A stretch of DNA of 20,157 nt from a virus, in IMG/VR virus record IMGVR_UViG_3300046804_006113, positions 1 to 20,157 of that record. The stretch is one strand, 5' to 3'. Shown here piece by piece: positions 2,078-17,817 of the stretch. The notes beneath the pieces were generated by a model. That model had not been told where the DNA came from. It made no database searches and saw nothing but the letters and a program-made list of their open reading frames with translations. Every line of letters begins with the position of its first letter. Position 1 is the first letter of the stretch. Both the position numbers and the translations under genes were made by a program.

Positions 2078-5000
2078 ATGACAGTAGGATTTATTAACTA
2101 TAGTTATTCTGGTTATACAGGAACTAATAATGACATCAAAAAAAGTTTTGAACTGACATATAAAAACAATCCAATTTTTCAACGTTATTTTGATGGTAGT
2201 AGTTCTTTAATTGTTTCTGCGGAGAATGACGTAGTTAGAATTCCGTATCATTATTTTGTTACCGGCGAAGAAATAAAATATTCATTTTTGGATAGTACAT
2301 CTAACCCACATCAACCAATAGGAATTGCAACCACTTCTGTAGTTGGGATAGGAACAACAAATCTACTTCCAGAAACACTATATGTTGTAAAGATTAATGA
2401 TTATGATATAAAGTTAGCAGCATCTGCAGAGGATGCTCTTAGATCTATTCCTAAAGTTTTTGATATTACTTCAGTTGGCATAGGATCATCACATATATTC
2501 ACTTCAAAAAAACAAAACAATAAGGTTATTATTGGAATTGATAATGTAATACAATCTCCAATTGTTTCATCTTCTTCTACAACATTATTATCAAATGATG
2601 TTGGGTTTTTTGATGAAAAAATATATGTTACTAACACTAATTTTATTTCGGGAGGCGATCTTCTAAAAATTGACGATGAGATAATGAAAGTTGTTTCTGT
2701 CGGAATATCGAGTACAAATGCAGTTTCAATATTAAGACCTTGGTTGGGTACAGAAGCATCTACTCATTCTTCTTCAACTGTTGTAACTAAAGTATATGGA
2801 AATTACAATATTGTAAACAATACTATTTACTTTGAAGACGCACCTTATGGAAAAGTACCAATACCTAACCCTACAAATAGAGCGGATGAAGTCGATTATG
2901 TTGGAATAGAAACAAGTTCAACTTTTAGTGGAAGAGTATTTTTAAGGTCAGGTGTTGCTGATGAAACAAATGAGACATATCTAGACAATTATATTTTTGA
3001 TACGGTTTCAAATGATTTTGATGGAATAAAGAAATCCTTTGATCTTAAGCTGGGGGGAAGTAACGTTACGGGATTCTCCACAGATAACGCAATCTTATTG
3101 GTAAACAGCATTTTTCAAGGTCCCGATGATCCTGAGGTAAATGGAGACTATGATATAAATGAAAATTCTGGCATAACTTCTGTTACATTCTCTGGCAACT
3201 CTAGTTCTAATAATTATGATGTTAATACTGCAAGTATACCTAGAGGTGGAATAATACTTTCAGTAGGATCAACTCAAGGGTTTGGTTACCAACCTCTTGT
3301 TGCTGCAGGAGGAACTGCGATAGTTTCTTTGGCAGGAACTATACAATCAATTAGCATAGGAAATAGTGGTTCTGGATATAGACCTGGTGTACAAACTATA
3401 GTTAATGTTGGAGTTAAAACCGAAAGTTTTGGAGAGTCAAATATAGAATATATTGGAATTGCTTCTATAAGTGGTGGCAATATTGTAAGTGTTGCAATTA
3501 CAAATCCTGGATATGGATATACATCATCAAATCCACCAATAGTTATATTTGATTCTCCACTATCTTACACCAATCTCCCTCTAGTTTATAGTTCCCAATC
3601 TACTGCAGGTGTTGGTACTGGGGCAATGGTCGATATTGTAGTAGGACAAGGTTCCAGTGTTATATCATTTGATATTAAAACCTTAGGATATGGGTATAAA
3701 CAAAATGAAATACTAACGGTTTCTATTGGCGGAACCAGCGGGATACAAACTGATACTTCATTGGCATTTTCGGAATTCCAAATAACAATAGATAAAACAC
3801 AATCGGATCAATTTGCTGCATGGACAGTAGGAAGACTTGTTGTTCTTGATAGTATAGAAGAGTACTTTGATGGGAATAGAAAAATATTTCCTATTATTAT
3901 AAATGGGCAACAAACTACTATCAAAGCAAAAAAAGGATCAAATATAGATGTTCAAGCAACACTTTTGGTCTTTATAAATGATGTACTACAAGTTCCAGGA
4001 CGAGGATATACTTTTAGGGGAGGTAGTATTATTAGATTTGCCGAACCACCAAAGGAAGGAGATAAGTGCAAAATATTATTTTATTCTGGTACAGCGGATG
4101 TAGACACCAAAGAAGTAGATATTTTAGAGACAATTAAAGTCGGAGATAATGTGAGAATAAATGATGATTCTATGAGTCTATCGCAAGATAGCAGATTGGT
4201 TACTAATATAATATCTGCAGACGCTATAGAAACTAATTTATATCCAGGTCCGGGAATTTCGCAGAAAGAAACTTTATTAAGACCTTTAACATGGTGCAAA
4301 CACCAAGAGGATATTTTAGTTAATGGTAAAAGTGTAGGAAAAGATAGAATAATTTATGAACCATATATTCAACCAGCAACTAATATAATTCAAAATGTAA
4401 GTACTTCTTCAACAATTGTGTTTGTGGAGAGTGTAAAAGCATTTTTTGACAGTGAAAAAGAATATACTCACGATGGAACAACTGAAAAACCCCAAAACAA
4501 AATCATAATCATATCACAAGATACAGTAGTCTCGTCTTCTGCCACTGCCATAGTTTCTGTCGCAGGAACTATTTCTATGATATCAATATCAGAAGGAGGC
4601 GCCGGATATACAACAAGTCCTACTGTTTCTATAAGTAATCCAATTGGAGTTGGAACTACTGGAGTAGCAACTGCTACTGCAACAGTTATAAATGGAGAGA
4701 TTTCTTCTATAGATTTAACATATGAGGGTTTTGGATATAATCAGTCAGATCCACCATATGTTTTGATTTCCCCCCCTTCACCAAAATATGAAATAATAGA
4801 TAAAGTTTCTTATGAAGGAGATTATGGCATTATTACTGGGATTAATACGGTATCCGTAGGTGTAGCATCTACTGGTATTACTTTTGATTTTTATATTCCA
4901 CAAGATTCTATTTTAAGAGACAATGATATTATAAGTGTTGGTATTGCAACGACGGGAATTAGTGGGATACAAACCGGATATTACTTTACAGTTTTCAATT

Positions 5001-5356
5001 CAAATGTAGGTAATGGTGTTACTTCTTTAAATTCTGATGGATCTATTGTTGGTGTAGGCACTTCTTTTATAGATAACATTTACCAAGTTGCTTCAGTTTC
5101 AATTGGTCAAACTTCTGTCCCGGGTATTGGAATAACAAACGTCACTAAAGTTGTTGTAAGTGTTTCTAGTTATAATAATTTGACTGGAATTGGATTTAGT
5201 GATTTTTATGGAGAGTATAGTTGGGGACTAGTCAAACTACCATCCAGATTGAAACCTAAAGATTTTACAACTTATGCTAATAATGGGGGTATTTCAACAT
5301 CTCCAGTTATTCAGAGATTTAATAGACTTAAATATATTGGGTATTCTACCACATAA
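2078..5356 (+). CDS. Large virion structural protein with Gly-Tyr repeats (position of T4 gene 7)
   Basis: This is a 1092-aa protein directly upstream of gene 8, where T4 carries gene 7 (T4 gp7 is about 1030 aa). The sequence resembles cyanophage structural proteins more than T4 gp7, so the equivalence is positional only. Residues 175-238 hold a beta module (LKIDDEIMKV ... RPWLGTEASTH) also seen in gp15 and in the 844-aa protein. Residues 395-549 and 832-898 hold five to six Gly-Tyr units such as ITNPGYGYTSSNPP. Residues 595-690 contain a block I recall from other cyanophage virion proteins (FDGNRKIFP ... VFINDVLQVPGRGYTF ... GGSIIRFAEPP). The C-terminus ends RLKYIGYSTT. There is no signal peptide or membrane segment. 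A late-promoter-like box overlaps the preceding stop codon. A baseplate or tail-fibre-associated role is inferred. Confidence 0.87.
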   Translation: MTVGFINYSYSGYTGTNNDIKKSFELTYKNNPIFQRYFDGSSSLIVSAENDVVRIPYHYFVTGEEIKYSFLDSTSNPHQPIGIATTSVVGIGTTNLLPETLYVVKINDYDIKLAASAEDALRSIPKVFDITSVGIGSSHIFTSKKQNNKVIIGIDNVIQSPIVSSSSTTLLSNDVGFFDEKIYVTNTNFISGGDLLKIDDEIMKVVSVGISSTNAVSILRPWLGTEASTHSSSTVVTKVYGNYNIVNNTIYFEDAPYGKVPIPNPTNRADEVDYVGIETSSTFSGRVFLRSGVADETNETYLDNYIFDTVSNDFDGIKKSFDLKLGGSNVTGFSTDNAILLVNSIFQGPDDPEVNGDYDINENSGITSVTFSGNSSSNNYDVNTASIPRGGIILSVGSTQGFGYQPLVAAGGTAIVSLAGTIQSISIGNSGSGYRPGVQTIVNVGVKTESFGESNIEYIGIASISGGNIVSVAITNPGYGYTSSNPPIVIFDSPLSYTNLPLVYSSQSTAGVGTGAMVDIVVGQGSSVISFDIKTLGYGYKQNEILTVSIGGTSGIQTDTSLAFSEFQITIDKTQSDQFAAWTVGRLVVLDSIEEYFDGNRKIFPIIINGQQTTIKAKKGSNIDVQATLLVFINDVLQVPGRGYTFRGGSIIRFAEPPKEGDKCKILFYSGTADVDTKEVDILETIKVGDNVRINDDSMSLSQDSRLVTNIISADAIETNLYPGPGISQKETLLRPLTWCKHQEDILVNGKSVGKDRIIYEPYIQPATNIIQNVSTSSTIVFVESVKAFFDSEKEYTHDGTTEKPQNKIIIISQDTVVSSSATAIVSVAGTISMISISEGGAGYTTSPTVSISNPIGVGTTGVATATATVINGEISSIDLTYEGFGYNQSDPPYVLISPPSPKYEIIDKVSYEGDYGIITGINTVSVGVASTGITFDFYIPQDSILRDNDIISVGIATTGISGIQTGYYFTVFNSNVGNGVTSLNSDGSIVGVGTSFIDNIYQVASVSIGQTSVPGIGITNVTKVVVSVSSYNNLTGIGFSDFYGEYSWGLVKLPSRLKPKDFTTYANNGGISTSPVIQRFNRLKYIGYSTT
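3260..4771 (+). repeat. Gly-Tyr repeat units in the 1092-aa structural protein
   Basis: Two clusters, 3260-3724 and 4571-4771, encode units of the same type as in gp14: TQGFGYQPLV, ISIGNSGSGYRPGV, ITNPGYGYTSSNPP, IKTLGYGYKQNE, ISEGGAGYTTSPTVSI and TYEGFGYNQSDPP. Between the clusters lies the unrelated VFINDVLQVPG block. Confidence 0.8.
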
Positions 5357-5359
5357 ATA
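5352..5359 (+). promoter_or_regulatory. Candidate late promoter box CATAAATA (gene 8)
   Basis: The box has seven of eight matches to the T4 late consensus TATAAATA and is placed 16 nt before the gene 8 ATG. The stop codon TAA of the upstream gene (5354-5356) is inside the box, followed by TAG. Confidence 0.55.
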
Positions 5360-5375
5360 GATTAAAAACGATAAA

Positions 5376-6965
5376 ATGTCTGCAATTATAACTGACCAAT
5401 TTAGAATTTTAAATGCAAGGAATTTTGTCGCGGCGGCAACTTCCTCTTCCAATTCATACTATTCATTTATTGGGTTATCCAACGCAACCGATTATGATTT
5501 AAATTGGGATGACAATCCTCCTGCTCCTAGAGATAGTTTTGAGCAGGAAGATGACTATTGGGATACTATGATTGCATTGAAAAAAATAAAATCTAATGAT
5601 ATAAGTCAAGTGGTCAGAAAAATCACTTGGACTTCAGGAACTACCTATGACATGTATCGTCATGATATAAGTAGAATCAATACATCAAAACCTTCTGGGG
5701 CAACGAACTTATATTCTGCCAATTATTACGTAGTTAATAGTGAGTATAAGGTTTATATTTGTTTACAAAACGGAACTGATCCAGAAAATCCAGACGGAAG
5801 ACCATCGTTGGATGAACCAAATTTTATTGACTTAGAACCCAGACCTGCAGGAGATAGTGGAGATGGGTATGTTTGGAAATATCTTTATACTATTAAACCC
5901 ACCGAAATAATAAAATTTGATACTGTAAATTTTATACCTGTTCCGAAAGACTGGTTTGAAAACAGCGAGTATGAACCCGTTATTTTAAATGCAGCACTTT
6001 CAAATAATCAATTAAAAATTATAACTATTAAGGATAGAGGTGTTGGAGTAGGAACTGCTAATAGAATTTATACTAATGTTCCAATAAAAGGTGATGGAAC
6101 TGGGGCAACTGCGACTATCGTGATTAATAACGAATCTAGAGTAGAAACTATAAACATATCCTCTGGGGGATCTGGATACACTTACGGGACTGTAGATTTA
6201 GTTGCCGGCAATGTTCCTGTTGGAATTGGTACGGCATCACCTTCTTTTGACGTTATTATTCCACCAAAAGGAGGTCATGGTGCTGATATCTATAGAGAAC
6301 TCGGTGCTTATAATGTTTTAATATATTCAAGAATAGAGAATGATTTAGAAAATCCAGACTTTATTGTTGGTAATAAAATTGCAAGAGTAGGGATAGTAGA
6401 AAATCCTCAAGATTATGATTCAACTTTAATATTGTCTAAAGATAAAGTAAGTGCAGTGGGATCTTTAAAACTTACTGGAATTGAAAATGAATCGGATTAC
6501 CAAACATCCGTTTTTACTGCCAATTCTTATATAACCCAAACTATAGGGACTGGATTAACTGCTATTGGTAGAGTTATTTCTTACGATAAGAATACCGGTG
6601 TTTTAAAATATTGTCAAGATAAAACATTATATGGATTTGATGTTAGTGGAATACAAACAGGAATTAGTGATTATGGATATGATGTATTAAAATTTACATC
6701 TTCGCCAAGTGCAGGAGGTAATTTAACAATATCAGGTGGAACAATTGATTTGCAAATAGATTCTGGTTTTGGGTCTATTTACAGTGTAGGTGTTACAACA
6801 GTAATAAATAGTAGAACATATAAGCTTGGACAGTCTTTTATCTCTGGTATTGCAAATCCAGAGGTCAAAAAATACTCTGGGAATATAATCCATGTTGACA
6901 ATAGACCTTCTATAACAAGATCTCAAAATCAAAAAGAAGATATTAAAGTAATCATTCAATTCTAG
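5376..6965 (+). CDS. gp8: Baseplate wedge subunit gp8
   Basis: This is the T4 gp8 family: a wedge protein that dimerises and joins gp10, gp7 and gp6 in the baseplate. The N-terminus (MSAIITDQFRILNARNFV), the central YDMYRHD and YYVVNSEYKVYICL stretches (residues 91-130), the GDSGDGYVWKYLYTIKP block (159-175) and the C-terminus (NPEVKKYSG...VDNRPSITR, then EDIKVIIQF) match cyanophage gp8 as I know it. At 529 aa it is far longer than T4 gp8 (334 aa). Part of the excess is a Gly-Tyr unit at residues 257-276 (NISSGGSGYTYG) and neighbouring Gly-rich sequence (235-300). The ATG follows the upstream stop by 19 nt with no strong Shine-Dalgarno. The next gene starts 2 nt after the stop, which suggests translational coupling. 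Confidence 0.93.
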   Translation: MSAIITDQFRILNARNFVAAATSSSNSYYSFIGLSNATDYDLNWDDNPPAPRDSFEQEDDYWDTMIALKKIKSNDISQVVRKITWTSGTTYDMYRHDISRINTSKPSGATNLYSANYYVVNSEYKVYICLQNGTDPENPDGRPSLDEPNFIDLEPRPAGDSGDGYVWKYLYTIKPTEIIKFDTVNFIPVPKDWFENSEYEPVILNAALSNNQLKIITIKDRGVGVGTANRIYTNVPIKGDGTGATATIVINNESRVETINISSGGSGYTYGTVDLVAGNVPVGIGTASPSFDVIIPPKGGHGADIYRELGAYNVLIYSRIENDLENPDFIVGNKIARVGIVENPQDYDSTLILSKDKVSAVGSLKLTGIENESDYQTSVFTANSYITQTIGTGLTAIGRVISYDKNTGVLKYCQDKTLYGFDVSGIQTGISDYGYDVLKFTSSPSAGGNLTISGGTIDLQIDSGFGSIYSVGVTTVINSRTYKLGQSFISGIANPEVKKYSGNIIHVDNRPSITRSQNQKEDIKVIIQF

Positions 6966-6967
6966 TT

Positions 6968-9900
6968 ATGTCACAAGAACTAAACCTAAATGTTTTCCCA
7001 TATTATGACGATTTTGATGAAAATAAGGATTATTACAATGTTCTGTTTAAACCTAGTGTCCCTGTTCAGGCTAGAGAGTTAAATGTCTCGCAGTCCATAC
7101 TTCAAAAACAAATAGAACGATTTGGATCTCATGTTTTTAAAGAAGGTGCTAGAGTATCCGGAGGAGAGATTAGTTATAAAAATGATTTATCTGCGATAAT
7201 ATTAGAAAATTCTTATAATGGAATTAATTTAGATTCTGTTCTATCAGTTCTAAAAGGAACCATATTAACAGGAAAAACTAGTGGCATAAAAGCAAAAGTT
7301 GCAGAAACCCTTTCCTCAAAAAAATCTGAAATAGGAAGTTTAACCCTGTATGTTGATTATGTATCATCTTCTTCCGATGGAATAAGTCAAAACTTTTTGC
7401 CCGGTGAAGTATTGCAGATAGAAACTGCCGGAGAATTTTTTAAATTAAATACTGCTGGACTAACTGAAGGGCAGGACTTTGGTATAACAAAAAATGAAAA
7501 TCACCTTGCATTCGCCCATGGAGTTTATATAAATTCTGGTGTTTATTATATTAAAGGGAAGTTCTTAAGAGTAAATGGAAAATTCTTACTTTTAGACCAA
7601 TATAATAATGTCGGAAGTCATAAAGTTGGATTTAAAATATATGAAGAATTTGTAGATTATATTGATGATGAAAGTTTATTAGATAATTCAAATGGATTTA
7701 CAAATTATGCTGCTCCAGGTTCTGATAGATTAAAGATAACCGCAGAATTAATAAATATTCCTCTATTTGCTGAAGAAAGTAACTTTATTTTACTGAAGCA
7801 GATTACTGATGGTGTAGAAGTAACTTCTCCATATAACACCCAATATGATGATCTAGCAAATGAATTCGCTAGAAGAACATATGATGAGTCCGGGGATTAC
7901 TATGTAAAAGCACCTACTTTATCAATTAAAGAGAGTTTAAATAACCTGAAAGGGAATGGGGGAATCTTTTCGGAGAACTCATTTACTTACTATAAGAACA
8001 AACCATCAGAAGACTTGGGATGTTATGTAATATCTCCATTTAAGTCTTATATTAGAGGATTTGAACTTGGAACACCAAATACTACTTATATTGACTTTAA
8101 AAAACCAAGAACAACAAAAAGACTTGAAAACCAAAATGTAATTTACAATACGGGTTCAACTTTTACTTTAAATAGAGTTCATGGTTCTCCAATTATAGGA
8201 ATTGGAAATACTTATTATGTTAGCTTGAGAGATAATAGAGTAGAGGACAATCAAAACAATGCTAGTGGAAAGGAAATAGGTTTAGCAAGAGTTTATGATT
8301 TTGCTTTAGAATCTGGTTCATATTCAAACAATCTTAATTTGAATGAATGGGATATTTCTCTTTATGATATTCAGACCTATGTTGAAATAACCTTAAACCA
8401 ACCAATAACTCTCGCTACACCAACTCACATCAAAGGTAAGTCAAGCGGCGCTACTGCATTCTTGAGATATGATGCATCTTCTTCCGGAATTATAACTGCA
8501 TATAATGTATCAGGTAAGTTTTCAATTGGAGAAAGTTTTGTATTTGACGGAATTGAAAACACAAGAATATCAACTGCAGTTACTTCTTATGGTATAAGTG
8601 ATATAAAATCAATTTATGGGAAAGTAGGGACAGCATATACTTTTAACTCTGATGTCAAACAATCTATTATTGATGTAGTTGGAACTGTAGCAATTACTTC
8701 AACCTCTTCTGGAATCAGTACTGTATCAAATCCTTCAATATTCTTCCAAAATATAATTAAACCAGGAAATTTAGTTTCTTACACACTTTCCGGAAATTCT
8801 GATATAAATTACTCAAAAGTTATTAGTGTATCGCAGAACTCATTTACGATTTCGGGAGTGACTACAGTACCTGGAATATGTGAGGGAAGTCTTCCCCAAA
8901 GTGATGTAACAGTTTCTGATTTAAAAATTATATCATCTACCTTAAATAGATCATCTGAAAGTAAGTTATATACACAATTACCAAAACAATATATCTCTGA
9001 TGTAGATTTAACAAATTCATTTTTAACTATCAAGAGACAATTTAATTGTGTAATTTCATCAAATTCCACAGAAGTTACTATTACAGAATCTGATCAAAAC
9101 TTTTTACCTTATGATGAAGAAAGATATACTTTAATTAGAGAAAATGGAACTACCGAAATTTTATCTGAAGATAAAATTATCATAGATCCAAATGGGAAGA
9201 AAATAACTATTAACGGACTTACTAGTGGTACAGGTAATGCTAAGTTAATTGCTACCTTACGTAAAGAGACGGTATCATCAAAAATAAAAAATAGAAATAG
9301 AGTAAAGGAAATTATAATTGACAAATCCAGAAAAGAAGGATCTGGTATTGGGCAAACAACTTTAAATAATGGGATTACATTCGGAAATTATGCTTATGGT
9401 ACAAGAGTAGAAGATCAAGAAATATGTCTATTAGAGCCTGATGTAACAAAATTATATGCAGTTATAGAATCTTCGGACACTAATAATCCAGATTCCCCTT
9501 CCATGACCTTTGGAGTTTTGGATGGAGCATCAGGTAGCACAAATGACTTAGTGTTAGGGGAAGAATTTATAGGCGAATCCAGCAATGCACTTGGAATATA
9601 CACAAAAAAAGTTAATAGTTTAAAAATAGAATTTATAGGTTTAAATAATGTTTCATTTGTTGATGGTGAAAATGTAAGGTTTAGAGAAAGTAACGTAACC
9701 GGTAGAATTGCGTCTATTAACTTTGGGGACAATGATATTACCTCTTCCTTTACATTAGACACAAATCAAAAAGATACCATATATGATTATTCAAAAATAA
9801 CTAGGTCTTCAAATAAACTAGAACCAACTAAAAAACTCAAAATTATTTTTGAGTCTGCTGGGTTTTCTTCATCAGATACCGGAGATATTATTACAGTAAA

Positions 9901-12529
9901 TTCATATTCAAACTTTGATTACTGTGATATTAAATCAATTAACGGAATTTCTAATTCTGATATTATTGATTTAAGACCTAGAGTATCTGATTACGGTGTC
10001 GCAGAAAATTCAAGATCGCCATTTGAATTTCTTGGAAGAACATTTAATCAAGCAGGAAATTCTGTAACAAATATACTCGCTTCCGACGAATCTTTCCCTG
10101 TTCATTATTCCTTTTATTTACCTAGAATTGATAGAATTTTCTTTACAAAATTTGGAAATTTCCAAGTAAATTATGGAAATCCTTCAGAAAATCCCGTTCC
10201 ACCATCAGGATTAGATGATTCGTTAGAGATTGCTTCAGTTTATCTTCCCCCATATTTGTGTTATGCGGGAGATGCCAGACCAACTCTTATGGAATATAAG
10301 AGATATAAGATGTCTGATATTAGATTATTAGAAAAGAGAATTGAAAATCTTGAGTATTATACCTCACTATCTCTATTGGAGTCTAAAACAGCTTCTTTAC
10401 AGATCAAAGATTCAAATGGAATTGATAGATTTAAATCTGGTTTCTTTGTTGATGATTTTTCTAGCAATATAAATCAACAAAAAATCACTATAACTAAAAA
10501 TAGTATTGATATTAATAATGCAGAGTTGAGACCAACTCATTATACAACTTCTATAGATCTTTTAAGAGGAACCAATTCTATACTTGGCATAGGGACACAA
10601 GTAGATTCAAATTACGATTTAAGTTCCGACAATACTTTCATTGGAAATGGTGTGAAAATTACTGGAAGAGTTGTTACTCTAGATTATGAAGAAGTAAATG
10701 AAATTTCCCAACCATATGCAACAAAAATTGTAAATGTTGTCCCATACGGATCACGTTATTATGGTGGCAATATGAAATTGCAACCTTCATCTGATGTTTG
10801 GATTGATCAAATTTCTTTGGAACCGAAAACTATTCAGGCAGAAGGAAATTATGTCAAAACTCTTCTGCAGGAAGATGTAGATCCCCAAACTGGATTTGGA
10901 AATCCCGTATGGAATTCTTGGGAAATAAATTGGACAGGAGAAACAAAAACTACAAAAACTACAAAAGAAACAGAAAAATATACAAATTCACCTAAAACAG
11001 GATCTGTCACTAAAGATGGCCAAAAAATATATGAGGTGACCACAACTACGACTATTAAAACAGGAACTCAAACAAGAGAAGGAACTCAAACATTAGTTAA
11101 AGAATCTTTTGCAAATGAGTCTTTGGGCAATTCTTTAGTAAGTTCCGATGTTTTGCCTTACGTAAGGTCCAGAAACGTTCAATTTACTGCTAAGAGTTTA
11201 AAACCATTTACAAGAATGTATCCATTCTTTGACGGTGTTGATGTTTCTTCTTATGTATTTCCAAAATTAGTAGAAATTGAAATGTTGGAAGGTGTATTTG
11301 AGGTTGGTGAAGATGTATCTGTACTTCGTATGTATTCTCCTCCACCTGGAATGGTGTTATGTGCAATTCCAGCTATACTCGCGCGTATCAGAATAGCAAA
11401 ACAAAATCACAAGTATGGAGATTATAGAAATCCAAGCGATATTTTTAGAAAAAACCCTTATGATCAGACAAGTTTGACTGATACATATACATCATCTTCA
11501 AGTATTCTGAATATTGATACATTTAGTCTGTCCGAGATGGTAAATGGTGAGTATTTTGGAAATTTGGTAAAAGATGTTATTTTACACGGATTGAGCAGTG
11601 GTGCAAGAGCAAGGGTCAGAGACATTAGAATTATTACAGATGATGTCGGAACAGTAATTGGTTCTTTCTTTATACCCGGTCCAAATACTTCATATAATTC
11701 TAAATTTGAAGCGGGGGAAAAAGTTTTTAGACTTACAAATAGCGACTTTAATTCTAAAGTGGAGGGCGTTCTTACGACTTCAGTAGAAACAACATACTAT
11801 GCTCAAGGAAGTATTAATACTGTTAAGGAAAATATAATTTCACTCAGAAATGCAACAATTGATACTACAGAATTATCAGAGACTCAGAATATTACAGATA
11901 CTAAGGTTGATGTAAACAAGAAACTTGTAAAAACTATAGATCCAACTGTACTGGACCCCACAATTATTCCCAGAACAGGAGATCCTTGCACAGATCGGGT
12001 TAATGCCGACCCCAACTATAAAGATGTAACTGCGCAAGAAGTTGAATTGATTGCACCGATAAATTCTTCTCGTAAAAACAACGGCGGTGGCAATGCAGGT
12101 TCTTTCGCTGATAATAGAAATTATCATTTGGGAAGAGTCTATGTTAATATTAGAGGAGGATATTTATATGGTAGCCCCATATCGGTGTCAGGAAGCACTC
12201 GAACATCCCAACAAATTGCAGATGACATTAATTCCCAATTAAGTCGGGCAAGAAGCAGACTAATTAACGACTGCAAGAACCCCAAGAAGAGTTCCAGTTC
12301 TAGTTCTTCAGGCACTGCATACCTTACTGGGGATATTATTAGAGATCAATATGGTGGAGACGCAGATGCGGCATTAAAAGCTGCCCAACAAGCAGCAGGA
12401 CCAGGTGGAACTATTATAGCAGGACCAGGTGCCGTTGAGAACTATGGTTTAGATCCAAGTAAGGTCGATGAAGTCAAATCAGAACCTGCGAAAAATAAGC
12501 AGACTAGTCTAACGAATAATCCATTTTAA
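6968..12529 (+). CDS. DUF4815-type giant virion structural protein (1853 aa)
   Basis: The N-terminus (NVFPYYDDFDENKDYYNVLFKPSVPVQ cut short here as NVFPYYDDF ... PVQARELNVSQSILQ, then IERFGSHVFKEGA) is the hallmark of DUF4815 phage structural proteins. Further blocks known in this group are DLRPRVSDYG (about 1001), a short helical segment RLLEKRIENLEYYTSLSLLE (about 1119-1138), and RSRNVQFTAKSLKPFTRMYP (1400-1419). A Lys/Thr-rich stretch lies at 1325-1375. SGA-type modules occur near residues 96-152, 485-527, 862-912 and 1537-1592. After about residue 1630 the sequence turns low-complexity, with a seven-Ser tract near 1775-1781 and an Ala/Gly-rich tail. In the T4 order this locus would carry genes 9-12. 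A baseplate-periphery or fibre role is inferred. The family usually continues into a 'DPLAQSF' domain, which here is a separate downstream gene. Confidence 0.88.
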   Translation: MSQELNLNVFPYYDDFDENKDYYNVLFKPSVPVQARELNVSQSILQKQIERFGSHVFKEGARVSGGEISYKNDLSAIILENSYNGINLDSVLSVLKGTILTGKTSGIKAKVAETLSSKKSEIGSLTLYVDYVSSSSDGISQNFLPGEVLQIETAGEFFKLNTAGLTEGQDFGITKNENHLAFAHGVYINSGVYYIKGKFLRVNGKFLLLDQYNNVGSHKVGFKIYEEFVDYIDDESLLDNSNGFTNYAAPGSDRLKITAELINIPLFAEESNFILLKQITDGVEVTSPYNTQYDDLANEFARRTYDESGDYYVKAPTLSIKESLNNLKGNGGIFSENSFTYYKNKPSEDLGCYVISPFKSYIRGFELGTPNTTYIDFKKPRTTKRLENQNVIYNTGSTFTLNRVHGSPIIGIGNTYYVSLRDNRVEDNQNNASGKEIGLARVYDFALESGSYSNNLNLNEWDISLYDIQTYVEITLNQPITLATPTHIKGKSSGATAFLRYDASSSGIITAYNVSGKFSIGESFVFDGIENTRISTAVTSYGISDIKSIYGKVGTAYTFNSDVKQSIIDVVGTVAITSTSSGISTVSNPSIFFQNIIKPGNLVSYTLSGNSDINYSKVISVSQNSFTISGVTTVPGICEGSLPQSDVTVSDLKIISSTLNRSSESKLYTQLPKQYISDVDLTNSFLTIKRQFNCVISSNSTEVTITESDQNFLPYDEERYTLIRENGTTEILSEDKIIIDPNGKKITINGLTSGTGNAKLIATLRKETVSSKIKNRNRVKEIIIDKSRKEGSGIGQTTLNNGITFGNYAYGTRVEDQEICLLEPDVTKLYAVIESSDTNNPDSPSMTFGVLDGASGSTNDLVLGEEFIGESSNALGIYTKKVNSLKIEFIGLNNVSFVDGENVRFRESNVTGRIASINFGDNDITSSFTLDTNQKDTIYDYSKITRSSNKLEPTKKLKIIFESAGFSSSDTGDIITVNSYSNFDYCDIKSINGISNSDIIDLRPRVSDYGVAENSRSPFEFLGRTFNQAGNSVTNILASDESFPVHYSFYLPRIDRIFFTKFGNFQVNYGNPSENPVPPSGLDDSLEIASVYLPPYLCYAGDARPTLMEYKRYKMSDIRLLEKRIENLEYYTSLSLLESKTASLQIKDSNGIDRFKSGFFVDDFSSNINQQKITITKNSIDINNAELRPTHYTTSIDLLRGTNSILGIGTQVDSNYDLSSDNTFIGNGVKITGRVVTLDYEEVNEISQPYATKIVNVVPYGSRYYGGNMKLQPSSDVWIDQISLEPKTIQAEGNYVKTLLQEDVDPQTGFGNPVWNSWEINWTGETKTTKTTKETEKYTNSPKTGSVTKDGQKIYEVTTTTTIKTGTQTREGTQTLVKESFANESLGNSLVSSDVLPYVRSRNVQFTAKSLKPFTRMYPFFDGVDVSSYVFPKLVEIEMLEGVFEVGEDVSVLRMYSPPPGMVLCAIPAILARIRIAKQNHKYGDYRNPSDIFRKNPYDQTSLTDTYTSSSSILNIDTFSLSEMVNGEYFGNLVKDVILHGLSSGARARVRDIRIITDDVGTVIGSFFIPGPNTSYNSKFEAGEKVFRLTNSDFNSKVEGVLTTSVETTYYAQGSINTVKENIISLRNATIDTTELSETQNITDTKVDVNKKLVKTIDPTVLDPTIIPRTGDPCTDRVNADPNYKDVTAQEVELIAPINSSRKNNGGGNAGSFADNRNYHLGRVYVNIRGGYLYGSPISVSGSTRTSQQIADDINSQLSRARSRLINDCKNPKKSSSSSSSGTAYLTGDIIRDQYGGDADAALKAAQQAAGPGGTIIAGPGAVENYGLDPSKVDEVKSEPAKNKQTSLTNNPF

Positions 12530-12547
12530 TTGAACTAGTGAATTTTC

Positions 12548-12555
12548 AATAAATA
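12548..12555 (+). promoter_or_regulatory. Candidate late promoter box AATAAATA (844-aa gene)
   Basis: The box has seven of eight matches to TATAAATA in the 48-nt gap before the 844-aa gene, 22 nt from its ATG. A second AATAAATA at 12571-12578 runs into the start codon and is too close to drive this gene with a normal leader, so this first copy is the better candidate. Confidence 0.5.
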
Positions 12556-12571
12556 TAACATAAAGGTTATA
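12554..12571 (+). repeat. 6-bp inverted repeat enclosing the ribosome binding site of the 844-aa gene
   Basis: TATAAC (12554-12559) pairs with GTTATA (12566-12571) around the loop ATAAAG. The likely Shine-Dalgarno AAGG (12563-12566) lies in the loop and at its edge, 11 nt before the ATG. The stem is short and AT-rich, so stability is doubtful. Confidence 0.3.
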
Positions 12572-12577
12572 ATAAAT

Positions 12578-15112
12578 ATGAGAATCATAGACCCATTAGC
12601 ACAATCATTTTTTATTGAAGACCCTAACGGAATTTTTGCAACCTCTATTGATATTTTCTTTTATTCAAAAGATAACACTCTTCCAGTAACTCTTCAATTG
12701 AGATCCATGCAATTGGGTCTTCCAACGGATATCATTTATCCTTTTAGTGAAGTTACCATAGACCCAATTTTAGTATCAGTAGATACTGATGGAAGTCAAA
12801 ACATACCGACAAGATTTAGATTCCCATCTCCGGTTTATCTAGAGGGTAATAAGTTTCATTCTATCGTCTTATTATCAAACTCAGAAAATTATAAAGTTTG
12901 GGTTTCAGAACTTGGTAAACCTGATTTATCAGGTTCTGGTGGATTATACAATACTCAAGAGTTTCCTCAGGCTATTGTAACGAAGCAACCACTAACAGGT
13001 GGATTATTTCAGTCTCAAAATGCGTCTTCTTGGGTTGAGCAACCTTATGAAGATTTGAAGTTTGAGTTAAATCGCGCAAACTTCACTTCAAATATTGGGA
13101 ATATAAATTTTTATAATCCAGAACTTGCCCTAGGTAACAATCAAATAGCAACTCTGCTTAAAGATTCTTTGAATATGAACTCTAGATTAGTAAGAGTTGG
13201 ATTGGGAACTACTATTTCGGATACAAACTTAAAAATTGGAAATACAATAATACAAAAAAATTCAAACCTAACTGGAAATTATGTAGGGAATGCAGGAAAA
13301 ATATCCGGCAATTTGCAAATTGTAAACGCAGGAATAGGTTATACTCCAATATCTACGAGCGATAGTTTTACCTTTAATTCAGTTTCTCTTAGTAGTTTAA
13401 CTGGAAATGGATTAGATGCGACCGCAAATATCACAATAAATGGTGGAGTTGCAGTTGCAGCAACTATAACTTCTGGGGGAAGAGGATATGTTCTAGGTGA
13501 TATTTTGACGGCAGATTCTATAGGTTCTCAAGGTCTTGGTCAAAATCTTAGATTATCTGTTTCCGAAATATCAGGAATTAATGAATTAATTTTAGATAAT
13601 GTTCAAGGATCATTTTCTGTAGGTGCCGGAAGTACTTTATATTATATTGATTCTGTCGGAATCACTTCAGAATTAAATCTTTCCGTGGGAGGAAATATTA
13701 TTGTTTCGTCAGAAAATATTAATGTGGTCAATGATGGTTTGCATATTAAAGTAAACCATAAAAATCACGGAATGCACGCTAGAGAAAATCAAGTCCAAAT
13801 TTCAAATGCCAGATCTGATGTAAGGACTACAACTCTACAGCAAGATTATTCTTCAGATTCCTCAACAAATATTTCTATTGCTTCTACAACTAATTTTTCT
13901 ACATTTGAGAATATTGGAGTTGGAGCATCAAATCCAGGATATATTCTGATTGGAAATGAAATAATTTCTTATACGGGTGTAGTTTCAAATGCACTTACTG
14001 GAATTACCAGAGGTATTGATAATACTATTTCATCTAGTTATACTTCTGGGGTTGAGGTTATGAAGTATGAACTCAACGGAATATCTTTAAGAAGAATTAA
14101 TAAAACTCACTTACTTCAAAATTCTGCCGTATCAGATTCTATTGATTTAGATTATTATACTATAAAAATAGATAACGCCAATTTTAATGGATTAACTTTA
14201 CCTCAAGGATTAACTGAACGCAGTGGAATTGGGTCTTTACCTTCACTATATACCAACGAAACAAAATCTGCGGGTGGAGCTGGAATAAATGCAACCCAAA
14301 ATATACAATTTGAAACTATTCGTCCAAATGTACATACTCTTATCTTAAATAAGACCAACATATCATCACAGATAAGAACAATTAGTGGAAGAAGTGTGAG
14401 TGGACAAGAAATTTCATTTGAAGATCGTGGGTTTGAACCTATAGATTTAAATTCCAATAATTACTTGGATGCACCTAGAATAGTTGCTTCAAAATTAAAT
14501 GAAGATACCTTCTTGGATAATATACAAGGGAATAAATCATTAACAATGTCATTTACCTTAGAATCTTCAAATTCAAAGGTTTCTCCAGTCATTGATTTAG
14601 ATAGGGTTAGTTTGATATTATCGACAAATAGAGTTAATGCTCCAATAACTGATTACGCAGCAGACTTAAGAGTTTCTAGTATTAAAGAGGATCCTAATGC
14701 TTTTGTATATGTAACAAAACATCTTGAACTGGAAATTCCAGCAACTTCTATTAGTCTTTTATTTGCTGCTTATGTAAATACCTTTAGCGATGTAAGAGCA
14801 TTTTACTCAATTACAAATGATCCATCTCTTGATCCTATTTTTTATCCATTCCCCGGATTTAGAAATTTGAATAATTTGGAGCAAGTAATTAATGATTCTG
14901 CAAGTGACGGATTGCCAAATCAACCCGTACCAAAGACAGATGTTTTGTCATCAAGTAATAATCCCAACTTGTTCCGGGATTATGAATTTAGTATAGATAA
15001 TTTAGATTCATTTAGGTTCTTTAGCATTAAAATAGTAGGAACATCAACAAATCAAGCATTCCCCCCAAGGATTAAAGATCTAAGAGTACTAGCATTAGCA
15101 CCTTCATATTGA
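12578..15112 (+). CDS. Virion structural protein, 'DPLAQSF' domain (split-off C-terminal half of DUF4815 family)
   Basis: This 844-aa product starts almost immediately with DPLAQSFFIED and continues with SIDIFFYSKDNTLPVTLQLR, FRFPSPVYLEG and a V/W-rich strand (YKVWVSELG). From memory, in other phages this block lies in the same polypeptide as DUF4815. Residues 246-310 have two Gly-Tyr units (NAGIGYTP, TSGGRGYVLG). Residues 425-496 hold a module (LIGNEIISY ... TGITRGIDNTISSSYTSGVEV) like those in gp15 and the 1092-aa protein. The C-terminal region (DAPRIVASKLNE, DLDRVSLILSTNRVN, FVYVTKHLELEIPATSI, DVRAFYSI) is a block I recall from cyanophage structural proteins. The ATG was chosen because it directly precedes the conserved block and follows AAAGG by 11 nt. 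It has its own late-promoter-like boxes upstream. Exact virion location is unknown. Confidence 0.86.
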   Translation: MRIIDPLAQSFFIEDPNGIFATSIDIFFYSKDNTLPVTLQLRSMQLGLPTDIIYPFSEVTIDPILVSVDTDGSQNIPTRFRFPSPVYLEGNKFHSIVLLSNSENYKVWVSELGKPDLSGSGGLYNTQEFPQAIVTKQPLTGGLFQSQNASSWVEQPYEDLKFELNRANFTSNIGNINFYNPELALGNNQIATLLKDSLNMNSRLVRVGLGTTISDTNLKIGNTIIQKNSNLTGNYVGNAGKISGNLQIVNAGIGYTPISTSDSFTFNSVSLSSLTGNGLDATANITINGGVAVAATITSGGRGYVLGDILTADSIGSQGLGQNLRLSVSEISGINELILDNVQGSFSVGAGSTLYYIDSVGITSELNLSVGGNIIVSSENINVVNDGLHIKVNHKNHGMHARENQVQISNARSDVRTTTLQQDYSSDSSTNISIASTTNFSTFENIGVGASNPGYILIGNEIISYTGVVSNALTGITRGIDNTISSSYTSGVEVMKYELNGISLRRINKTHLLQNSAVSDSIDLDYYTIKIDNANFNGLTLPQGLTERSGIGSLPSLYTNETKSAGGAGINATQNIQFETIRPNVHTLILNKTNISSQIRTISGRSVSGQEISFEDRGFEPIDLNSNNYLDAPRIVASKLNEDTFLDNIQGNKSLTMSFTLESSNSKVSPVIDLDRVSLILSTNRVNAPITDYAADLRVSSIKEDPNAFVYVTKHLELEIPATSISLLFAAYVNTFSDVRAFYSITNDPSLDPIFYPFPGFRNLNNLEQVINDSASDGLPNQPVPKTDVLSSSNNPNLFRDYEFSIDNLDSFRFFSIKIVGTSTNQAFPPRIKDLRVLALAPSY

Positions 15113-15113
15113 T

Positions 15114-15389
15114 ATGAGATACCATAAAGTCAATGGAATTGATGGATTAATGAGAGATTCGCATACGAATCATATAATCAACACAAATCAAATTGAATAT
15201 CAAAATTATATGAAATTAGTTTCGGCGAAGAGAAGGGAAAAAGAAAAAATAGAAAACTTAGAAAATAATCTAGATGAACTGTTTCTACAAACAGATAAAA
15301 TAAAGAACCTTGAGAATGATGTAAATCATATTAAGAATGATCTAGAAGAAATTAAAAATTTACTGAGGAATTTGGCAAATGGATCCTGA
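15114..15389 (+). CDS. Small coiled-coil protein of the structural cluster
   Basis: This 91-aa protein begins 1 nt after the preceding stop. The N-terminal part (YHKVNGIDGLMRDSHTNHII, then NTNQIEYQNYM) resembles a small protein family common in T4-like cyanophages near structural genes; no function is known to me. Residues 40-88 form a predicted coiled coil. Hydrophobic a/d positions are I63, L66, V70, I73, L77, I80, L84 and L87, preceded by I46, L49, L53 and L56 in a shifted register, so there is one stutter around residue 60. In T4 the gene just before 13 is wac (fibritin), also a coiled-coil protein, but no sequence similarity is visible and the length is far smaller. The end overlaps the next gene by 11 nt. 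Confidence 0.82.
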   Translation: MRYHKVNGIDGLMRDSHTNHIINTNQIEYQNYMKLVSAKRREKEKIENLENNLDELFLQTDKIKNLENDVNHIKNDLEEIKNLLRNLANGS

Positions 15390-15549
15390 TAAAATTTCTT
15401 TAGAAAGTATGAATAAATTATTTGAATATGAAAAACTTTCTAGGGATATAGATAGTATAGATGATCTTGAAACTTTGAGAAATTTAGCAAAATCTTATAT
15501 CAAATTATATTTTAAACAACAAGAAGTAGTTGCGGAATTTAAAATCTAA
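15379..15549 (+). CDS. 56-aa conserved-type small protein upstream of gene 13
   Basis: The ATG at 15379 lies inside the end of the coiled-coil gene (11-nt overlap). The frame runs MDPDKISLESMNKLFEYEKL ... IDSIDDLETLRNLAKSYIKL ... and stops at TAA 15547-15549. The last A is also the first base of the gene 13 ATG (TAATG), so the two are probably translationally coupled. The product looks fully helical and amphipathic, charged, without Cys or membrane segment. Similar short proteins with 'KLYLKQQEV'-like C-termini occur beside gene 13 in cyanophages, as far as I recall. The function is unknown; head-neck assembly or a regulatory role are guesses. The tight packing on both sides supports a real gene. 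Confidence 0.8.
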   Translation: MDPDKISLESMNKLFEYEKLSRDIDSIDDLETLRNLAKSYIKLYFKQQEVVAEFKI

Positions 15550-16403
15550 TGGCACAACCATCCACTAGACAAGAACTTATAGATTACTGTAAAAGAAAAC
15601 TTGGTGCTCCTGTACTAGAGATTAATGTTGCAGATGAACAGATTGAAGATCTGGTGGATGATGCGATTCAATTTTTCCAAGAAAGGCATTTTGATGGAGT
15701 ATATCCAACTTTTTATAAGTATCAAGTAACTCAAGATGATATTGATAGGGGAAGAGCGGGATATGGAGGTAGAGCAGCAACTAGTGTTGGAATTGCAAGC
15801 ACTTCAGCAACTGCAAACATTGTAGGAACCGCAACTACCTTTAATTTTTATGAAAATAGCAACTATCTTCAAGTTCCACCAAATATCATTGGAGTAAATA
15901 AAATCTTCACATTTGATGGTGCCAATACAATTACTCACAATATGTTCAGTGTGAAGTATCAGTTGTTCTTAAATGACATTTATTATTGGGGAACAACGGA
16001 ACTTTTGAGTTATGCGATGGTTAAAACATACTTAGAAGATCTTGATTTTCTACTTAATACCCAAAAACAAATAAGATTTAATAAAAGACAAGATAGATTA
16101 TACTTGGATATTGATTGGGGGTCAGTTACTAAAGATCAATATTTTATTATAGATTGCTATTCGACTTTAGATCCAAATGATTACTCAAGAGTTTGGAATG
16201 ATTCCTTTATTAAACCATATTTAACCTCTCTTATCAAACGACAGTGGGGACAAAATATGATGAAATTCACTGGGGTTAAACTTCCAGGTGGCGTTGAACT
16301 AAATGGTAGACAAATGTATGATGATGCGCAACGAGAAATTGATATTCTTATGGAAAAAATGTCTAACACTTATGAACTTCCTCCATTAGACCTTATCGGT
16401 TAG
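15549..16403 (+). CDS. gp13: Neck protein gp13
   Basis: This is T4 gp13, which with gp14 forms the neck that seals the DNA-filled head and provides the tail attachment site. Diagnostic stretches are the N-terminus (MAQPSTRQELIDYCKRKLGA), the following PVLEINVADEQIEDLVDDAI with QFFQERHFDG, YQLFLNDIYYWGTTELLSY (138-156), and the C-terminal LPGGVELNGRQMYDDAQ with ELPPLDLIG. Length 284 aa compares with 309 aa in T4. Residues 66-97 are an Ala/Gly/Thr-rich insert (RGRAGYGGRAATSVGIASTS) that looks like low-complexity linker and shares the GIAST motif with the upstream structural proteins. The start overlaps the previous stop by 1 nt, and gene 14 follows after 4 nt. Confidence 0.95.
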   Translation: MAQPSTRQELIDYCKRKLGAPVLEINVADEQIEDLVDDAIQFFQERHFDGVYPTFYKYQVTQDDIDRGRAGYGGRAATSVGIASTSATANIVGTATTFNFYENSNYLQVPPNIIGVNKIFTFDGANTITHNMFSVKYQLFLNDIYYWGTTELLSYAMVKTYLEDLDFLLNTQKQIRFNKRQDRLYLDIDWGSVTKDQYFIIDCYSTLDPNDYSRVWNDSFIKPYLTSLIKRQWGQNMMKFTGVKLPGGVELNGRQMYDDAQREIDILMEKMSNTYELPPLDLIG

Positions 16404-16407
16404 TCTT

Positions 16408-17817
16408 ATGCTTAATCCATTTTTTCTACAAGGTTCTAAAACAGAACAGGGGTTAATCCAAGACTTGATTAACGAGCAATTAAGAATGTATGGGGTTGAG
16501 GTTTATTATCTCCCTAGACAATTTATTACAGAAAAAACTGTTATAAGAGAAGTTATAGAATCTGAATTTAATAATGCATATCCAATTGAAGCTTATGTTG
16601 ATACTTATGATGGATATAGCGATAATCCAACTATTCTATCAAAATTTGGAATTCAAGCACTTAATGAAATAACATTAACTATTTCAAGAGAAAGATTTAA
16701 GAATTATATTTCACCTCTAATTCAAACTCAACCCAATATAAAAGTATCATCAAGACCAAAAGAGGGAGATATAATTTATTTTCCCTTAGGTAAAAGATTG
16801 TTTGAAATTAAGTATGTAGAGCACGAAAAACCTTTTTATCAGTTGCAAGGAACATATACATACCAATTAAGATGTGAGTTATTCCGTTATGAAGATGAAC
16901 TAATTGATACTGGAGTTGACGAAATTGATGAACTTATTAGTGGAACAGATCTAGATGAGGATAAAGGTCCAATTGGAAACCTTATAAATCTTACGATGAT
17001 TGGTGTTGGCGCCACTGCAACCGCAACAGCAGGAATTGTAAATGGTGGAGTTAGGTATATTACTGTTACAAATAGGGGTGGTGGATATACATCTATCCCA
17101 ACAGTGGGTATTTCTTCTGCACCTTCCAATGGTAGAACAGCAACTGCAGTTGCTAAGATGATTGATGGAATTGTTGTATGTAATACAAACATAAATCCAA
17201 AATCAAAGTCAGTTCAAGAAGTTTTTATTACAAATGCCGGTTATGGATATACTACCACCCCTCAGGTAAAATTCATTGGGGGAGGTGGTAATGGGGCAAC
17301 TGGAATTGCGTCTATAGGTGACGGTATTGTTGGCATAATTACAGTAACAAACTCAGGTTCTGGTTACGTAGTTCCACCATCAATTACTTTTAGTGGCATT
17401 TCAACAGTTTCTGCTGCAGCGACGGCAGTTGTATCTGCTGCAGGAACAATAACATCCATTTATATAACAAATGCTGGTCTTGGATATACAGAGAACCCAA
17501 CCATTACTATTGGAAATCCCGCATTGTCATCGTCAGGAAACTTTGAGTTTAATGAGATAGTCACAGGATCCCAAAGTGGAGTAACTGCAAGAGTCAAATC
17601 TTGGAATTCTATTACAAATATTCTCCAAGTTTCTAATATTGATGGAGAATTTCTTTTGGGCGAAAATATTGTAGGATCCGAATCCGGAGCATCTCATTAT
17701 TTGAGTAAAATTGATGCAATGCCAACAGATGATGGATATTCTGCAAATGATGAAATTGAGAATGAGGCAAATAATATTATTGATTTTACCGAAACCAATC
17801 CATTTGGGATGCCGTAA
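16408..17817 (+). CDS. gp14: Neck protein gp14, enlarged by internal repeats
   Basis: This is T4 gp14, partner of gp13 in the neck. The core is clear at residues 1-165 (MLNPFFLQGSKTEQGLIQDL, then EVYYLPRQFITEKTVIREVI, GDIIYFPLGKRLFEIKYVEH, YQLQGTYTYQLRCELFRYED) and at the end (NEANNIIDFTETNPFGMP, here ANNIIDFTETNPFGMP). T4 gp14 is 256 aa; this protein is 469 aa. The excess falls in residues about 190-430. It holds four Gly-Tyr units (216-237, 270-290, 309-329, 349-369; for example ITNAGLGYTENPTITIG) and then an SGA-type module at 380-428. The insert thus lies between two conserved halves. It probably makes a beta-rich domain projecting from the neck, which is inference. Gene 13 ends 4 nt upstream and a 56-nt gap with a promoter-like box follows. 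Confidence 0.94.
   Translation: MLNPFFLQGSKTEQGLIQDLINEQLRMYGVEVYYLPRQFITEKTVIREVIESEFNNAYPIEAYVDTYDGYSDNPTILSKFGIQALNEITLTISRERFKNYISPLIQTQPNIKVSSRPKEGDIIYFPLGKRLFEIKYVEHEKPFYQLQGTYTYQLRCELFRYEDELIDTGVDEIDELISGTDLDEDKGPIGNLINLTMIGVGATATATAGIVNGGVRYITVTNRGGGYTSIPTVGISSAPSNGRTATAVAKMIDGIVVCNTNINPKSKSVQEVFITNAGYGYTTTPQVKFIGGGGNGATGIASIGDGIVGIITVTNSGSGYVVPPSITFSGISTVSAAATAVVSAAGTITSIYITNAGLGYTENPTITIGNPALSSSGNFEFNEIVTGSQSGVTARVKSWNSITNILQVSNIDGEFLLGENIVGSESGASHYLSKIDAMPTDDGYSANDEIENEANNIIDFTETNPFGMP
17053..17514 (+). repeat. Four Gly-Tyr repeat units inside gp14
   Basis: Units at 17053-17118, 17215-17277, 17332-17394 and 17452-17514 encode YITVTNRGGGYTSIPTVGI, VFITNAGYGYTTTPQVKFIG, IITVTNSGSGYVVPPSITF and IYITNAGLGYTENPTITIG. 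The consensus is I-x-V/I-T-N-x-G-x-G-Y-T/V-x-x-P-x-I/V-x-I. Spacers between units are Ala/Gly-rich with ATAT or AAATAVV stretches. Confidence 0.85.

Follow-up and report, generated by a model that had tools for sequence, protein, structure and literature searches.

A repeat unit of about 39 residues, tagged by the motif GxGY, recurs in four virion proteins encoded by a structural gene cluster of T4-like cyanophage type. Comparison of the protein sequences confirms the sharing, far above chance. The unit is laid out as an A strand, a B strand (VxxIxITN), the segment GxGYTxxP and a C strand. Units come in pairs, and a pair is homologous, as shown here by profile comparison, to a domain of solved structure in the tailspike Dpo31.

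Genes and repeat units of the cluster

The DNA analysed is a 20 kb virus record (20,157 nucleotides, hereafter the window), in which gene order is syntenic with that of S-SM2 and P-SSM2. The genes relevant here are:

2-2059, first piece of gp7 (ORF1)
2078..5356, + strand, 1092-aa protein, C-terminal piece of gp7 (phrog_2885, E=4e-288)
5376..6965, + strand, baseplate wedge gp8 (Pfam Phage-Gp8, E=3.6e-15; phrog_438)
6968-12529, first piece (1853-aa protein) of a VrlC-like/phrog_358 protein
12578..15112, + strand, 844-aa protein, C-terminal part of the VrlC-like/phrog_358 structural protein
16408..17817, + strand, neck protein gp14 (Pfam T4_neck-protein, E=2.3e-28)

A 91-aa protein, gp13, gp15, gp16 and one further ORF are also encoded. 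Residues 2-231 of gp14 match T4 gp14 in the PDB (phmmer, E=1.4e-25), and the 844-aa protein matches positions 1422-2055 of phrog_358 (E=5.7e-186). The 1092-aa protein had been taken as a protein of its own; the ORF stands, but it encodes the C-terminal quarter of gp7, a giant baseplate wedge protein. Of 67 loci, 65 have gp7 unsplit; it is broken only in the window and in a sibling contig. The break is an in-frame TAA at 2057-2059; after it come six codons and, 18 nt on, an ATG. Presence of the same break in the sibling makes an error in a single assembly unlikely as the simple cause. The VrlC-like/phrog_358 giant protein, a single gene in S-SM2 and P-SSM2 and one intact ORF in 65 loci, is split in the same frame at 12527-12578 in the window as well as 13 further loci among those listed, some of them from identical or near-identical phages. 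The split is a gene fission in several relatives.

GxGY units are distributed in the window as follows:

3248..3757, + strand, gp7 cluster 1, four units (GxGY at aa 401, 431, 478, 537)
4520..4777, + strand, gp7 cluster 2, one pair (GxGY at aa 841, 884; 31.7 and 36.8 bits)
5994..6224, + strand, gp8 pair, aa 207-283 (second half 22.9 bits)
13271..13537, + strand, weak pair of the 844-aa protein (GxGY at aa 252, 301; GYxxGD subtype; 16.4 bits)
16981..17520, + strand, gp14 four-unit block, aa 192-371 (four units in all 83 relatives)

The earlier note had reported four copies in gp14, five to six in the 1092-aa protein, and further copies in gp8 and in the 844-aa protein, and all were recovered. 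The gp14 copies have GxGY with the expected flanks at aa 224, 278, 317 and 357; the copies in the 1092-aa protein number six. The gp8 copy, with GxGY at aa 265 in NISSGGSGYTYG, forms the latter half of a pair whose first half (aa ~210-224) is degenerate; the copies in the 844-aa protein make up a weak pair. At aa 641 of gp7, FINDVLQVPGRGYTF is a different motif, with flanks unlike those of a unit, and was discarded.

Among relatives, exactly four units were found in gp14 in 83 of 83 cases, and gp7 ORFs of the class of the 1092-aa protein all carry units, 1–14 each. One or two units are present in 60 of 90 gp8 ORFs, and relatives of the 844-aa protein feature a pair at the matching position. 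The gp14 of phage Sf-FS3 measures 780 aa, about 310 aa above the usual, with roughly 200 extra aa between the first unit and the remaining ones.

The strict pattern [IV][TSN][NST]xGxGY[TVRK] occurs 7 times, versus 0.0035 expected in shuffled proteins (maximum 1 in 2000). A profile made from the four gp14 units alone, suggested earlier as a means to find the others, retrieved gp7 (E=3.5e-14), but gp8 and the 844-aa protein did not rise above noise, as the profile was too narrow. A broader profile, trained on the gp14 units of 83 relatives, all other proteins being held out, identified 483 non-gp14 domains scoring at least 8 bits, versus none in shuffles; in the window, gp7 scored 11–24 bits and gp8 9.8 bits. 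Weakest of the four carriers, the 844-aa protein reached 16.4 bits with an iterated profile, versus 11.7 for the best control among 3311 shuffled or reversed sequences.

A second, distinct module follows the unit block in gp14:

17533..17727, + strand, aa 376-440 of gp14 (F..NE.VTGS.SG.TARV)

Its fuller form is FEFNEIVTGSxSGxTARVxSW...GEFxxGENIVGSxSGA. It is found also in ORF1 (gp7), at aa 123-166, and in the VrlC-like 1853-aa protein, at aa 488-525. The corresponding profile scored 133 bits in gp14, 16.5 in ORF1 and 14.1 in the 1853-aa protein, versus 8.8 in the best shuffled control.

The paired module and its solved relative

Units are spaced by 39 aa (median). Outside cyanophages, 277 of 300 tandem clusters, singletons left out, have an even number of units and 23 an odd number, in counts which include related proteins and are not independent. 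Even and odd clusters number 138 and 42 in bacterial and archaeal genomes (138 and 16 without singletons), 139 and 35 in viral contigs (139 and 7), in loci sampled by one exact 32-base pattern, the bacterial set being limited to sequences near NGG[ST]GYT[ST]APT. Clusters of exactly two units number 104 in the former and 96 in the latter; a single detectable unit was seen in 54 clusters. After these counts the single unit was dropped in favour of a two-unit module (~80 aa). Read in pairs, gp8 and the 844-aa protein have one each, gp14 two, gp7 two plus one. Lambda-like tail tube proteins (256–260 aa) match the 154-position TTP_11 model over 228–240 residues, which leaves about 76–86 extra aa, the size of one pair.

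One relative (L104) has nine tandem units at aa 3830-4184 of its gp7 ORF, versus the one pair of cluster 2 in the window, and its linkers are near-repeated (SSPVDEFG/SSPIDEFG). The array is a local tandem expansion within gp7.

Searched against the PDB, a single-unit profile matched Dpo31 (E=0.0048), the tailspike of Cobetia phage Carin-1 (PDB 28lx, 28mg, 8ck1). With a two-unit profile (A4), residues 446-507 of Dpo31 were matched with E=2e-6, and this was the sole significant chain. The match puts two tandem units under one profile and falls within domain D3* (residues 434-536), which shows sequence homology of the GxGY module to D3*. According to the accessible text of the structure paper (PMC13317679), D3* is an Ig-like domain inserted in the beta-helix and protruding from it, soluble by itself and devoid of depolymerase activity when alone; in that form it did not crystallise. 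The best DALI matches reported for it are distantly related sugar-binding domains (Z 2.8–2.9), and the same text does not mention the repeat. In contrast to the cyanophage arrays, Dpo31 is a podovirus depolymerase, in which the insertion corresponds to a single pair.

In the AF2 model of gp14, the unit block is predicted as 12 strands, four times A-B-C, with pLDDT mostly at 86–95, dropping to about 60–72 near aa 251-270; the T4-like N-domain is poorly modelled. The unit regions of gp7 follow the same A-B-C strand order (pLDDT mostly 75–89), so that the two models agree in strand order. Foldseek searches of the PDB with the gp14 and gp7 models, which included poorly modelled parts, gave no significant match for the repeat region; the T4 gp14 N-domain was the only significant match, and Dpo31 is absent among the 50 matches listed for the whole models. 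Matches to EF-Tu/SelB-type proteins and to antibodies were dismissed as insignificant.

No Pfam family matches the unit blocks of the window at E<=10, and NCBIfam, as a search with the nine-unit array, gave only matches far below cut-off. The module is covered by no Pfam or NCBIfam model, and is unnamed in those two collections; literature searches for its peptide strings found nothing on it. It would resemble the Ig-like accessory domains of phages (Big_1, Big_2, FN3), which are small beta-sandwiches added at exposed sites of virion proteins, and in one match to a "major tail protein with Ig-like domain" the pair lies beyond the tail domain. It differs from them in having no match to Pfam or NCBIfam Ig/FN3 models, and from classical Ig domains in being made by two halves of ~39 aa, extendable into arrays.

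Distribution and candidate functions

No units were found in a scan of the T4 genome. Outside the module the gp14, gp8 and gp7 of the window are homologous to the T4 proteins, which lack the unit and are shorter (256, 334 and 1032 aa, respectively). The region of gp8 that contains the pair spans 292 profile positions in this family but 88 aa in T4 gp8, and comparison of gp14 with its T4 counterpart is consistent with insertion of the unit block. All 8 isolated T4-like cyanophages searched carry units, 10–19 each, located in gp7, gp8 and gp14; in S-SM2 and P-SSM2 units, some of them weak, reside also in fibre, tail-fibre-like and PA14-domain proteins. Unrelated phages have pairs inserted in proteins of the tail tube, tail sheath, fibres, baseplate and neck, as well as in other virion proteins; one pair sits inside the tail-sheath match. 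In bacterial and archaeal contigs, some of which may be prophages (L169, with its tail tube protein, is an example), pairs are found in surface-type proteins as well as in proteins not recognisable as virion parts. As judged by these profile matches, the GxGY module is widespread, probably as a decoration, and is neither specific to the virus of the window nor a local invention.

In several Chryseobacterium loci (L184, L210, L218, L219 and others) a family of ~375-aa proteins hosts one pair between PSAILHIEN and NKGLLFPNL. The pair looks inserted in a surface or tail-fibre-like protein; no uninterrupted version of the host protein was found among the fetched loci. In a Kordia locus (L171:2347-3198), one unit pair is found in a DUF2589 protein.

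The units probably form a small, internally duplicated Ig-like accessory domain (~80 aa), inserted in exposed sites and serving as surface decoration. Two units, each providing three strands and a GxGYTxxP turn, would build one beta-sandwich domain, and longer arrays (4, 6 or more units) would be strings of such two-unit domains. Dpo31 D3* is itself an inserted, protruding and independently soluble domain. Homologues are inserted, at apparently exposed sites, in tail tubes, sheaths, fibres, spikes, baseplate wedges and necks, and occur also in surface-type proteins of bacteria and archaea. On the virion, the module would be exposed as a non-catalytic decoration, most likely providing weak, broad adhesion to glycans of hosts or particles, or stabilising neighbouring subunits. 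Both roles are suggested by analogy with proposals for phage Ig-like domains: contact with surface carbohydrates has been proposed, and not verified, for Ig-like/FN3 domains of phage tails, and in lambda the Ig-like domain of the tail has been proposed to add a ring contact (PMC8718954).

More specific functions may be envisaged, each held tentatively. The GxGYTxxP turns of both units could form a site for sugars of the cell envelope or of exopolysaccharides. This possible but rather doubtful assignment would fit D3*, which belongs to an exopolysaccharide depolymerase and distantly resembles sugar-binding domains (PMC13317679), as well as the carbohydrate contacts proposed for phage tail domains (PMC8718954). 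However, conservation is strongest at G, G, Y and P, which would serve a structural turn equally well, and the carriers include neck, baseplate, sheath and tube proteins, whose usual role is not receptor contact. A purely structural, ligand-free spacer or stabiliser, making subunits bigger and neighbour contacts more numerous in a large marine virion, is likewise possible but rather doubtful. The many structural roles of the carriers, the giant size of gp7 (~4000–5200 aa versus 1032 in T4) and the ring contacts which tail Ig-like domains may add (PMC8718954) speak for a spacer; presence of the module in bacterial and archaeal proteins not recognisable as virion parts, and as a protruding domain in a tailspike, speaks against it. 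Finally, it seems rather unlikely that the unnamed family is a general low-affinity glycan-adhesion module spanning virion parts, the paired turns being the putative site, and exchanged with bacterial surface proteins.

Descent of the modules and their annotation

The earlier note viewed the unit as a surface module shared by proteins from different parts of the virion and spreading between genes of one structural cluster. The unit is indeed present in gp14, gp7, gp8 and the 844-aa protein; spread between genes did not find support in identity comparisons. In gp14, units at the same position in different phages share 0.49–0.55 identity, units at other positions of the same phage 0.29–0.41; being closer by position than by phage, they are orthologous by position. 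Units of gp14 and gp7 are about equally alike whether they come from one phage (identity 0.364) or from different ones (0.362; permutation p=0.40), and gp7 and gp8 units show no same-phage excess (p=0.49). Position-wise orthology and the lack of a gp7-gp14 excess do not support recent spread between these two genes. The modules are thus mostly older than the diversification of these phages; in gp7, local expansion came later.

Spread among cluster genes by recombination within a phage is thus improbable. One module in four genes of a single cluster, unit numbers varying from 1 to 14 in gp7, the tandem expansion described above, and gp14 and gp8 units slightly closer within (0.338) than between phages (0.322; p=0.02, one of three uncorrected tests) would be in keeping with it. 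These data are set against the positional orthology of gp14 units, the absent gp7-gp14 excess, and the wide occurrence of the module outside the cluster, together with its presence in additional genes of these phages.

Convergence of low-complexity beta sequences rich in Gly, Tyr, Thr and Val, in place of homology, might be suspected from the biased composition and from the low single-unit scores of the 844-aa protein, but is most improbable in view of the 483 real matches of at least 8 bits versus zero in shuffles, the regular spacing (median 39 aa), the arrangement in pairs and the position-specific orthology.

Annotation may be misled by the module. The profiles phrog_460 ("head closure Hc2"), phrog_708 and phrog_2885 ("baseplate wedge subunit") match unrelated proteins, such as tail tube proteins, over the module-bearing stretch. 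The formerly anonymous motif has now a boundary (the unit pair), a solved relative and a distribution. In the cyanophage lineage of the window, the modules contribute to the enlargement of gp7, gp8 and gp14, and offer one reason why these proteins exceed the size of their T4 counterparts.
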